Positions 49,248 through 51,318 of a DNA stretch of 64,000 nt are shown here, piece by piece. The DNA comes from Bradyrhizobium sp. WBAH42 (GTDB taxonomy: Bacteria > Pseudomonadota > Alphaproteobacteria > Rhizobiales > Xanthobacteraceae). A program made the position numbers and the translations under genes. The stretch covers positions 5,279,001 through 5,343,000 of the forward strand of contig NZ_CP036533.1 in the NCBI RefSeq assembly GCF_024585265.1. The letters run 5' to 3'. How positions within the stretch are numbered: position 1 is the stretch's first letter; the number at the start of each line of letters is the position of its first letter. A model generated the notes under the pieces. That model was not told where the DNA came from. It saw only the letters and a list, made by a program, of their open reading frames with translations, and made no database searches.

Positions 49248-49423
49248 AATTATAAGTCGGTACGGGCCGCTTTTTCACCAGCCCCAAAGAGGTCCGGACC
49301 GCTTCGATCGCCATTGCGGGTACAGTACAGCCTGCCGCGGCGCTCGGCGGCCGGCCGATGCCCAAGGCCGGCCGCGAATTCTTTACGATCATCCGGCACA
49401 CTCGCTGGCCGAGGGTTTCGAGC

Positions 49424-50026
49424 ATGACCACTGCCAAACGATGGACCTCGTACCTGCTTGCGGTCGCAATGCCCGCGCTGCTCTTCGCCGCGCCGGTACA
49501 GGCCGTCGTGACCGCGAGCACGCCGACCGCGCTTCACAGCGACACAGATGGTGATGCCGAAGCGGACCGCCAGGCAGTCAGCCGCGAAATAGAGCGATTC
49601 CGCGGCTCGTCGATCACGATCAGCCAGGCCATGGCGATTGCCGAAGCCCGCCATGCCGGCGCCACCACCGCCGATGTGAGCTTCGACGGCGGCTCGGGCG
49701 TGCCGGTCTACCGGGTAAAGACCCTGCACAACGACCGGATCTGGCGCCACACCATCAATGCCGCGACGGGCGAATTCGTCGGCGGAGAAGCCGCCCTCCC
49801 CCTTACCGAGCTCGACCGCGAGGACCGCAGCAACCTCGCAGCGCTAGGTGCGATCAGGCACCGCCTCTCCGATGCCGTGCGCGTCGCCGAGCGCGCCGCT
49901 GCGGGCAAGGCGATCAGCGGCGGGCTGGTCCGCGAACGCGGCCGGCTGAACTTCTCGATCGTCGTCGTCAGCGGCGACGATCTCAAGGAGGTCACCCTGG
50001 AGCCGCCGGGCGCCAAGGCGAAATAG
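49424..50026 (+). CDS. Secreted protein with two PepSY-like domains
   Basis: A 200-residue exported protein: signal peptide (YLLAVAMPALLFAAPVQA), then a PepSY domain (about 50-118: ISQAMAIAEARHAGATTADV ... VPVYRVKTLHNDRIWRHTIN, ATGEFVGG) and a second, more diverged one to the end (LSDAVRVAERAAAGKAISGG ... LNFSIVVVSGDDLKEVTLEP). PepSY domains often inhibit proteases in the periplasm. ATG 49424 gives the signal peptide. The upstream operator suggests co-regulation with the patatin-like lipoprotein. Confidence 0.82.
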   Translation: MTTAKRWTSYLLAVAMPALLFAAPVQAVVTASTPTALHSDTDGDAEADRQAVSREIERFRGSSITISQAMAIAEARHAGATTADVSFDGGSGVPVYRVKTLHNDRIWRHTINAATGEFVGGEAALPLTELDREDRSNLAALGAIRHRLSDAVRVAERAAAGKAISGGLVRERGRLNFSIVVVSGDDLKEVTLEPPGAKAK

Positions 50027-50093
50027 CGGGTGCTAAATAGCGGGTGCCGAATAGCGGCACGCCGCCCCAGGCATCGACCGGGCCGAAAAGCCA

Positions 50094-50122
50094 TTGACGG
50101 GGGCAAGACTCTCCCGCATAAG
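50094..50122 (+). promoter_or_regulatory. Sigma70-like promoter of the asd leader
   Basis: TTGACG (50094-50099), 17 bases, then CATAAG (50117-50122). Transcription should start near 50128-50131, which is at the ATG of the leader ORF; the leader mRNA would be leaderless or nearly so. Confidence 0.65.
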
Positions 50123-50130
50123 TCGCCGCC

Positions 50131-50202
50131 ATGTTCACGACCACCAAACGCACGACCAAAACCACCACGGCCGAAGGGGCCCGGGGAGGCGTGCGCGCGT
50201 AG
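50131..50202 (+). CDS. Threonine-rich leader peptide of the asd attenuator (23 aa)
   Basis: Reads MFTTTKRTTKTTTA then EGARGGVRA: eight Thr, two Lys and one Arg in the first 13 residues. Thr codons are ACG ACC ACC, ACG ACC and ACC ACC ACG, with no ATG or long ORF in the other frames that would explain the stretch. It lies directly after a promoter and before a terminator and asd. In classical thr and trp attenuators the ribosome stalls at such codons when the amino acid is short. ACGACC at 50137-50142 and 50152-50157 can pair with GGTCGT at 50202-50207 just after the stop. No ribosome-binding site is visible, as expected if leaderless. Confidence 0.82.
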   Translation: MFTTTKRTTKTTTAEGARGGVRA

Positions 50203-50233
50203 GTCGTCGACTTAAACGCATCAGCTCTACGGC

Positions 50234-50265
50234 AAGCCCCGCCCTCGATGGCCCGGGGCTTTTTT
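50234..50265 (+). terminator. Attenuator terminator upstream of asd
   Basis: AAGCCCCG (50234-50241) and CGGGGCTT (50254-50261) form an 8-bp stem, with further GCC/GGC pairing in the loop, followed by an uninterrupted T-run to 50265. Upstream GGGGC (50176-50180) or CGGGG (50182-50186) in the leader ORF could pair with the left arm as an antiterminator. Confidence 0.9.
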
Positions 50266-50292
50266 GTTGTCTAAAACGCAATGGAGGACAAA

Positions 50293-51318
50293 GTGAGTAA
50301 CGATCCCGTCGTCGCGATTGTCGGCGTCACCGGTGCGGTGGGCGCCGAATTCATCGCCACCATGGACAAGCGTGGTTTCCGCGTCGGCAAGCTCAAGGCA
50401 CTGGCGAGCGCACGCTCGGCCGGCAAGACGGTGTCGTTCCGCGGGCACAGTGTGGTCATCGAGGAGTTGACCGAGCGTTCTTTCGACGGCGTCGACATCG
50501 CGCTGTTCTCCGCCGGCGGCAGCATCTCCAGGAAGTATGCGCCGATCGCGGTCAAGGCCGGTGCCGTCGTGGTCGACAACTCCTCCGCCTTCCGCATGGA
50601 CCCCAACGTGCCGCTGGTGATCCCCGAGATCAACGCCAGCCGCATCCGTGACCACAAGGGCATCATTGCCAACCCGAACTGCGCCGCGATCACCGCCCTG
50701 GTGCCGCTCTGGCCGATCCACCAGAAGAACCGCATCAAGCGCGTGATCATCTCGACCTATCAGGCGGCTAGCGGCGCCGGCGCCGCCGCGATGGAGGAGC
50801 TCGTCGAATCCACCCGCGCCAATCTCAACGGGCAGGTCTATACGCCCAAGGTGATGCCGCACCCCTACGCCTTCAACCTGTTCAACCACAACACCGCGAT
50901 CGACCCCGAGACCGGCTACAACGACGAAGAGACCAAGGTCATCAAGGAGACCCGCAAGATCTTCGAGGACGAGAGCATCGCCGTCGGCGTCACCTGCGTG
51001 CGCGTGCCGGTGCTGCGCGCCCATTGCGAAGCCATCACCTTCGAATGCGAGAAGCCGATCACCGAGGACCAGGTCCGTGCCATCATGGCGCAGGCCCCCG
51101 GCGTCAAGGTGATCGACGACCGCGCCAAGAACTACTTCCCGATGCCGATCGACGCTTCGGGCCAGGACGACGTGCTGGTGGGCCGCATCCGCAAGGATCT
51201 CAGCGACGCTAGCGGCCATTCGATCTCGATGTTCGTGGCGGCGGATCAGCTGCTCAAGGGCGCCGCGCTGAACGCAGTGCAGATCGCCGAGCTCCTGCCG
51301 CAGCGGGTGATGGCGTAG
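50293..51318 (+). CDS. asd: Aspartate-semialdehyde dehydrogenase
   Basis: Makes aspartate semialdehyde from aspartyl phosphate with NADPH, at the branch point to lysine/diaminopimelate, threonine and methionine. The 341-residue length is normal. VAIVGVTGAVGAEF is the NADP loop and NPNCAAI holds the nucleophile Cys130; the C-terminal MFVAADQLLKGAALNAVQIAE is typical. The start is the GTG at 50293, because GGAGG (within an upstream in-frame ATG at 50281) is then at perfect spacing. The Thr-rich leader, terminator and promoter upstream suggest transcription attenuation. Confidence 0.95.
   Translation: MSNDPVVAIVGVTGAVGAEFIATMDKRGFRVGKLKALASARSAGKTVSFRGHSVVIEELTERSFDGVDIALFSAGGSISRKYAPIAVKAGAVVVDNSSAFRMDPNVPLVIPEINASRIRDHKGIIANPNCAAITALVPLWPIHQKNRIKRVIISTYQAASGAGAAAMEELVESTRANLNGQVYTPKVMPHPYAFNLFNHNTAIDPETGYNDEETKVIKETRKIFEDESIAVGVTCVRVPVLRAHCEAITFECEKPITEDQVRAIMAQAPGVKVIDDRAKNYFPMPIDASGQDDVLVGRIRKDLSDASGHSISMFVAADQLLKGAALNAVQIAELLPQRVMA

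Follow-up and report, generated by a model that had tools for sequence, protein, structure and literature searches.

The second aspartate-semialdehyde dehydrogenase gene (asd2) of Bradyrhizobium sp. WBAH42 is very likely controlled by a ribosome-mediated transcription attenuator sensing threonine and probably lysine, as indicated by sequence comparison and folding models. The window, i.e., the whole stretch of 64,000 nucleotides that was analyzed, covers positions 5,279,001-5,343,000 of the 8.29-Mb Bradyrhizobium genome. Within it, the following elements are assigned to the asd2 locus.

50094..50122, + strand: predicted sigma-70-type promoter TTGACG-N17-CATAAG (sequence, spacing in relatives)
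50131..50202, + strand: leader ORF MFTTTKRTTKTTTAEGARGGVRA, 23 codons plus TAG, with 8 Thr and 2 Lys codons
50137..50142, + strand: possible protector strand ACGACC, partner of 50202-50207 (free fold)
50158..50166, + strand: predicted control codons Lys10-Thr11-Thr12, AAA ACC ACC (highest conservation, ribosome-position model)
50176..50183, + strand: predicted 5' strand of the antiterminator, GGGGCCCG, codons 16-18 (fold with the upstream RNA masked)
50202..50207, + strand: possible protector strand GGTCGT, partner of 50137-50142 (free fold)
50230..50240, + strand: predicted 3' strand of the antiterminator, CGG at 50230-50232 and GCCCC at 50236-50240, overlapping the left arm of the terminator
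50234..50265, + strand: intrinsic terminator hairpin and U-tract (sequence, folding, alignment)
50283..50287, + strand: Shine-Dalgarno sequence GGAGG of asd2 (sequence)
50293..51318, + strand: asd2, aspartate-semialdehyde dehydrogenase, GTG start (NCBIfam models)

Promoter and leader ORF

The -35 box TTGACG (50094-50099) is separated by 17 nt from the -10 box CATAAG (50117-50122), which is itself followed by 8 nt and the leader ATG at 50131. The transcript is thus predicted to start at this ATG or within a few nucleotides of it. Threonine occupies codons 3, 4, 5, 8, 9, 11, 12, and 13 of the leader and lysine codons 6 and 10. The stem of the terminator associates AAGCCCCG (50234-50241) with CGGGGCTT (50254-50261), with a T-run reaching 50265 and a hairpin energy of -15.6 kcal/mol. 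The promoter, the 23-codon ORF with its eight Thr codons, GGTCGT, the terminator, GGAGG, and the GTG all lie where the sequence-only reading had placed them. Some relatives, L002 and L006 among them, lack the in-frame ATG at 50281.

Spacing of the promoter was followed through 131 asd2-type loci, some genomes being present twice under different handles, of which 128 have the leader and L186, L187, and L190 have none by the rule used for this set. TTGAC stands at -37 in 114 of the 128 and CATAAG exactly 8 nt 5' of the ATG in 116. This spacing leaves little room for a Shine-Dalgarno sequence in the leader transcript, so that the ORF is probably leaderless. Leaderless transcripts are reported in Bradyrhizobium, with 320 starts located 0-10 nt 5' of start codons (PMC4842269, available in part).

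The two asd genes and their distribution

The product of asd2 scores 406.5 bits against the NCBIfam model TIGR01296 (cut-off 324.2) and 436.1 bits against NF011456 (cut-off 223). The genome has two asd genes, this one being the second; the other copy (L165, G000:C1:1187311-1188300) is 46% identical and belongs to the type occurring throughout the order, referred to below as the ordinary asd. Of 98 genomes sampled in the genus, 92 carry the asd2 type, nearly always alongside the ordinary asd, while G032, G041, G048, G053, and G097 show the ordinary type only and G091 gives no asd match at all. Outside the genus, asd2 is sporadic, as in G170 (83%), G259 (62%), G295 (80%), and G430 (73%).

In the genome of the window, no Thr/Lys ORF of the leader type stands close upstream of the ordinary asd, of the homoserine dehydrogenase gene, of the two threonine synthase genes, or of the aspartokinase gene scoring over the cut-off (a second, sub-threshold aspartokinase match, L297, being left out). 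Six ordinary asd loci of the window's family and genus (L116, L125, L129, L133, L165, L166) carry a terminator-like hairpin at about -58 to -19, standing without a detected Thr/Lys ORF.

Conservation of the leader peptide

A leader was counted where an ATG-started ORF, 6-60 codons long and located at most 350 nt upstream of asd, contained a stretch of 12 residues with six or more Thr plus Lys, three or more of them Thr. By this rule, all 80 loci L001-L080 have a Thr/Lys leader; they are the top 80 of 573 relatives, closely related and not independent of one another. Bradyrhizobium diazoefficiens SZCCT0423 (L008) and SZCCT0449 (L009) are among these loci. The same rule retrieves it in 0/80 antisense sequences, 1/400 dinucleotide shuffles, and 2/1440 flanking windows of the same loci. 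Among the 43 distinct ORFs of 23 codons (78 loci), Lys10 and Thr11 are each present in 43, Lys6 in 42, and Thr12 in 41, so conservation of the two Lys codons matches that of the Thr codons. The Thr codon itself varies between ACC, ACG, and ACT at positions 3, 4, 5, 8, and 9, and in-frame indels occur, L001 having one Thr codon fewer and L062 one extra codon. Judged by these synonymous changes and in-frame indels, the leader is conserved as a peptide and not merely as DNA. Codons 16, 17, and 19-21 are nearly invariant at the nucleotide level, as expected if they form an RNA strand.

The leader is retained before the additional asd copies L176 and L177 and also precedes asd2-type genes elsewhere in the class (L184, L185, L188, L189, L191), together with a GCCCC/GGGGC hairpin like that of the window. 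No such leader was found at L186, L187, L190, and L192, with asd 56-69% identical. In L176 (G076) and L177 (G071), the CATAAG box is kept with the leader and the DNA on the -35 side differs. The locus L056 (JAUEPE010000002.1), titled 'Frankia sp. RB7', has a Bradyrhizobium-type asd2 (94% identity) with the leader, and this label is probably wrong.

The terminator could also be thought to simply end transcripts coming from an upstream gene, asd2 having its own short promoter and the leader being non-regulatory. Indeed, a same-strand ORF lies upstream (49358-50026) and the terminator precedes asd2, but a conserved promoter and ORF are interposed between that upstream ORF and the terminator. Such a role would account neither for a peptide conserved beyond its DNA nor for a leader accompanying extra asd copies, and it is hardly probable at all.

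Terminator, antiterminator, and protector pairing

Across 24 aligned leaders, 97.9% of the cells of the terminator are paired. A T-run is found 3' of the leader in 125 of the 128 leader-bearing asd2-type loci, the three without it being L138, L188, and L191, and a rule requiring a hairpin plus a T-run detects a terminator after the leader in all 52 asd2-type loci scanned. For the antiterminator, 76.8% of the cells are paired vs. at most 65.8% when the strand is slid, and a standard pair is kept at the successive positions of GGGGC in 19, 24, 23, 24, and 21 of the 24 leaders. No covariation of the antiterminator above shuffles was detected in this alignment because its core is invariant. Leaders pair better with the left-arm region they carry themselves than with one taken from another leader (permutation p = 0.003 for 13 divergent leaders and 0.007 for 20). 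The strength of the duplex between leader and left arm is itself unexceptional: 44% of shuffled leader segments equal it in the window, and shuffles are as strong in 29% of cases for L111, 33% for L173, 25% for L175, and 48% for L189.

An alignment of related upstream regions had been proposed, in which Thr codons and both helices should be kept while the rest varies. In the relatives compared here, the Thr codons, the terminator, and the antiterminator strand are indeed kept and the rest varies. The protector helix ACGACC/GGTCGT, in which GGTCGT had been read as able to pair with the Thr codons, forms in the free fold of the window but is weakly conserved, with 73% of cells paired and 25/500 shuffles as high.

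Ribosome position and the proposed mechanism

When the leader RNA of the window is folded free, it adopts a long hairpin that includes ACGACC/GGTCGT, plus the terminator. Masking the first 42 nt, which approximates a ribosome placed with codon 10 in its A site and its edge about 15 nt ahead, leads GGGGCCCG to pair with the left arm of the terminator (50236-50240) and with 50230-50232. The terminator folds when the mask extends to the edge of a ribosome at Thr13 or beyond the stop codon.

The ribosome was then moved along 97 distinct leaders (four loci were skipped), and the probability of the terminator core was computed at each position. With an edge at +12, this probability in the window is 0.56 at codon 10 and 0.01 at codons 11 and 12, vs. 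0.69 with the ribosome at the stop codon or without ribosome, and the low zone moves by one codon with the assumed edge of the footprint. The probability falls below 0.5 somewhere in 91 of the 97 leaders and never in six; L111 and L189 show no drop and do not switch in the model. A drop of at least two-fold is obtained in 88 leaders at each of the edges +9, +12, and +15. For these three edges, the low zone mostly extends as far as codon 13, 12, or 11, respectively, which is the end of the Thr/Lys cluster. At the last four codons of the cluster, the two-fold drop occurs in 82/97 leaders vs. 179/485 controls in which only the nucleotides between the Thr/Lys cluster and the terminator were shuffled. 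Averaged over all Thr/Lys codons, the terminator probability goes from 0.83 to 0.53 (below 0.5 in 35/97 leaders), and this modest fall means that, in the model, the last few control codons matter and the whole run does not.

The folding model thus predicts that a ribosome stalling at the control codons exposes an antiterminator whose formation excludes the terminator. The proposal of the sequence-only reading, in which a Thr-rich leader and a GGGGC antiterminator competing for the left arm of the terminator attenuate asd, gains support from the comparison of relatives and from the parked-ribosome folding against its shuffled-spacer control. The mechanism would proceed as follows. Transcription would begin at or next to the leader ATG, allowing a ribosome to load on the leaderless ORF. 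With ample charged tRNA-Thr, and probably tRNA-Lys, the ribosome would reach the stop codon and either cover or leave GGGGCCCG, the terminator would fold, and transcription would end in the U-tract near 50265. If either charged tRNA were scarce, the ribosome would halt at about Lys10-Thr11-Thr12 with its leading edge just short of GGGGCCCG, which, once exposed, would pair with GCCCC of the left arm, block the terminator, and let asd2 be transcribed. The ORF and its codon conservation, the promoter spacing, the terminator, and the complementary strand come from sequence comparison, the dependence of the switch on where the ribosome stands is computed, and we infer where transcription starts, that Bradyrhizobium translates the leader, and that the system responds to Thr and Lys.

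Threonine, lysine, or both as the signal

Asd supplies precursors of Thr, Lys, Met, and Ile and is a branch enzyme that also leads towards diaminopimelate for the cell wall. Low charged tRNA-Thr had been proposed as the signal of the attenuator; the Thr codons are conserved as this supposes, but Thr alone is unlikely, and the signal is probably Thr and Lys together. When 60 leaders of the order are selected by their Thr content only, Lys accounts for 16% of the residues in the final 14 positions and for 28.6% once Thr is set aside, vs. 4.6% of the residues in the N-terminal remainder of the same ORFs. In the asd2 leaders, Lys10 adjoins the predicted control position. The Lys codons of 61 distinct asd2 leader ORFs are mostly AAA (116 AAA, 24 AAG), those of five long window ORFs treated as genes mostly AAG (4 AAA, 61 AAG). 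This preference for AAA might instead keep the 5' part of the leader unstructured.

The same attenuator could sense Thr only, the Lys codons being incidental A-rich filler. This is unlikely although Thr codons exceed Lys codons (8 vs. 2 in the window, 445 vs. 173 across the order) and although the modeled effect in the window falls on Thr11 and Thr12 and is small at Lys10, since Lys10 is invariant in the distinct 23-codon ORFs, Lys is enriched in leaders picked on Thr alone, and Lys codons recur in the unrelated leader sequences of many families.

Related leader systems

In E. coli, the thr leader encodes a Thr/Ile-rich peptide and controls thrABC. This leader (thrL, Rfam RF00506) resembles the one described here in its Thr-rich peptide and in the terminator that precedes aspartate-family genes, whereas the amino acids (Thr/Ile vs. 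Thr/Lys) and the genes (thrABC vs. asd) differ. RF00506 is not matched in 49950-50400 at E-values up to 5, the three Rfam matches obtained there belonging to other families and lying far below their cut-offs. Over cut-off, Rfam returns only a tRNA in the whole window and nothing in the leader region or in 20 related loci. In a genome of the class, a weak match to RF00506 (L200:2556-2669, - strand, 32.8 bits for a cut-off of 55, E = 0.016) covers an asd leader region.

Attenuators of ilv leaders in Alphaproteobacteria were reportedly described by Vitreschak et al. in 2004. The ilvB leader of that work is cited in PMC1273637, and an ilvIH leader is described in Caulobacter (PMC4117421), both sources being available in part. 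These leaders represent classical attenuation in the same class and differ by their branched-chain amino acids and their genes. In Sinorhizobium meliloti, the leader trpL, with its products rnTrpL and peTrpL, has a leaderless ORF and a terminated leader RNA according to the accessible part of PMC10117765. The window leader is predicted to share both features but precedes asd2 instead of trpE. Trans functions are described for trpL. A mainly trans-acting leader RNA or peptide, with cis attenuation as a secondary effect, would fit the predicted leaderless-type ORF and discrete terminated RNA, both resembling those of rnTrpL in the same partial source (PMC10117765). The conservation is centered on cis elements, and such a trans role is quite improbable.

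The closest precedent is SEP5 of S. meliloti, a small protein with six Thr and three Lys codons clustered near its 3' end, located in the 5'-UTR of a gene termed aspartate dehydrogenase (PMC10117765, in its accessible part). According to the same partial source, its translation was shown by Ribo-seq and Western blot, a leader peptide function was suggested without an RNA mechanism, and its conservation was given as restricted to Sinorhizobium. The Ribo-seq data set named there is GSE206492. In S. meliloti strain Ak57, the ORF before asd ends in KTTAKTTTKTV, with six Thr and three Lys as described for SEP5 in that excerpt. From the matching counts and place, and in another strain, this ORF fits SEP5. 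This ORF precedes the ordinary asd, its cluster abuts the stop codon, and its sequence shows no U-tract terminator, whereas the window leader precedes asd2 and is followed by one. The earlier statement that no Thr attenuator on asd was described therefore stands for the literature searched except for the leader peptide suggested in PMC10117765, as far as the accessible part of that paper goes. The kind of device is already known; in the literature searched, what looks new is the pairing of Thr plus Lys with asd, together with how widely it occurs and the two architectures it takes.

Leaders before the ordinary asd across the order

A sample of 121 genomes of the order yielded 106 asd upstream regions from 105 genomes. 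Sixteen genomes were left out (genomes of the window's own genus or family, fragments, contig ends, genomes without match, and G259, which was handled separately as L138, L171, and L172). The ATG rule finds a Thr/Lys ORF in 61 of the 106 regions vs. 0/106 antisense sequences, 5/530 shuffles, and 0/464 flanking windows. Allowing GTG and TTG starts, divergent Thr/Lys leaders are present in 63/106 loci and 27/47 families, and 20 sampled families have none. In the window's own family, 26 loci were kept and one of them has a leader; among the best-scoring 29 loci of the class search, seven do. Near relatives excepted, the peptides have little in common beyond their composition. In 61 of the 63 leaders, the Thr/Lys cluster is separated from the stop by 0-3 codons, and the stop itself is mostly located 97-125 nt 5' of asd. 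By the hairpin-plus-T-run rule, no U-tract terminator is detected after 60 of these 63 leaders, the three exceptions being L151, L152, and L155. The window leader is unlike this SEP5-type architecture, as 10 codons separate the end of its cluster from the stop and it has a U-tract terminator downstream.

Eight named records of a plasmid collection were also read for an asd leader. Sinorhizobium meliloti Ak57 and Sinorhizobium K101 share the ORF ending in ...KTTAKTTTKTV, and the Shinella and Rhizobium NLR16a records carry a Thr/Lys ORF before asd. Azospirillum argentinense has the leader MNRSLAITTTTTKTTRPGGPSDGGVR followed by a GGCCCCG hairpin resembling that of asd2. No such ORF was found in Methylobacterium bullatum, Ruegeria TM1040, and Sphingomonas parapaucimobilis.

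The spacer between leader stop and asd (L139-L164, L213-L292) contains segments resembling CUCUCCCC, GGGGAG, and GGGGAGAG, possibly a new RNA motif. With a first automatic arm finder, pairing of A with a downstream segment was unsupported (p = 0.91, 25 loci). With arms taken from alignment columns, A:D pairing scores 7.12 with the locus' own partner vs. 6.33 with those of other families (0/5000 permutations, 25 loci, one per family), X:B is more weakly supported (p = 0.035), and A:B (p = 0.15) and X:D (p = 0.80) are unsupported. Since the two tests differ, the structure across the order is merely suggestive. RNAalifold run on 51 of these sequences returned almost nothing.

Control might also be exerted on the translation of asd2 by sequestration of its Shine-Dalgarno sequence, rather than on termination. 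Similar peptides before the ordinary asd of other families, mostly with no U-tract terminator detected, would agree with this, as would the slightly higher Shine-Dalgarno accessibility in 39/61 loci of the order (p = 0.008) when a ribosome edge is placed 20 nt past the leader stop. However, a strong hairpin with a U-tract is conserved at the window locus. Across the order, sequestration was rejected, as a stall at the last Thr/Lys codon brings no gain in accessibility (24/61 loci, p = 0.46), and translational control of asd2 is very improbable.

The balance tips slightly towards a broader proposal, which combines the transcription attenuator of asd2 with the leaders of the ordinary asd. Over a large part of the order, asd would be controlled by an attenuator reading both Thr and Lys codons, whose peptides would change fast and be constrained solely in their Thr/Lys content and position. 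Its RNA would come in two architectures: the sporadic duplicate asd2 would have a terminator switch, and the ordinary asd a multi-segment switch (X:B, A:B, A:D) without U-tract. If so, duplication would leave one asd of Bradyrhizobium constitutive and the other demand-driven. By reading Thr and Lys codons jointly, such a leader would offer a compact way of sensing the demand on an enzyme at a shared branch point, which would account for asd control in rhizobia. SEP5, reported as Sinorhizobium-only in the accessible part of its source, would become a member of a widespread regulatory class.

Among the S. meliloti records, L298 (CP090106.1) is labeled plasmid pSymB; it is chromosome-sized (3.72 Mb) and carries asd, and its label may be wrong.
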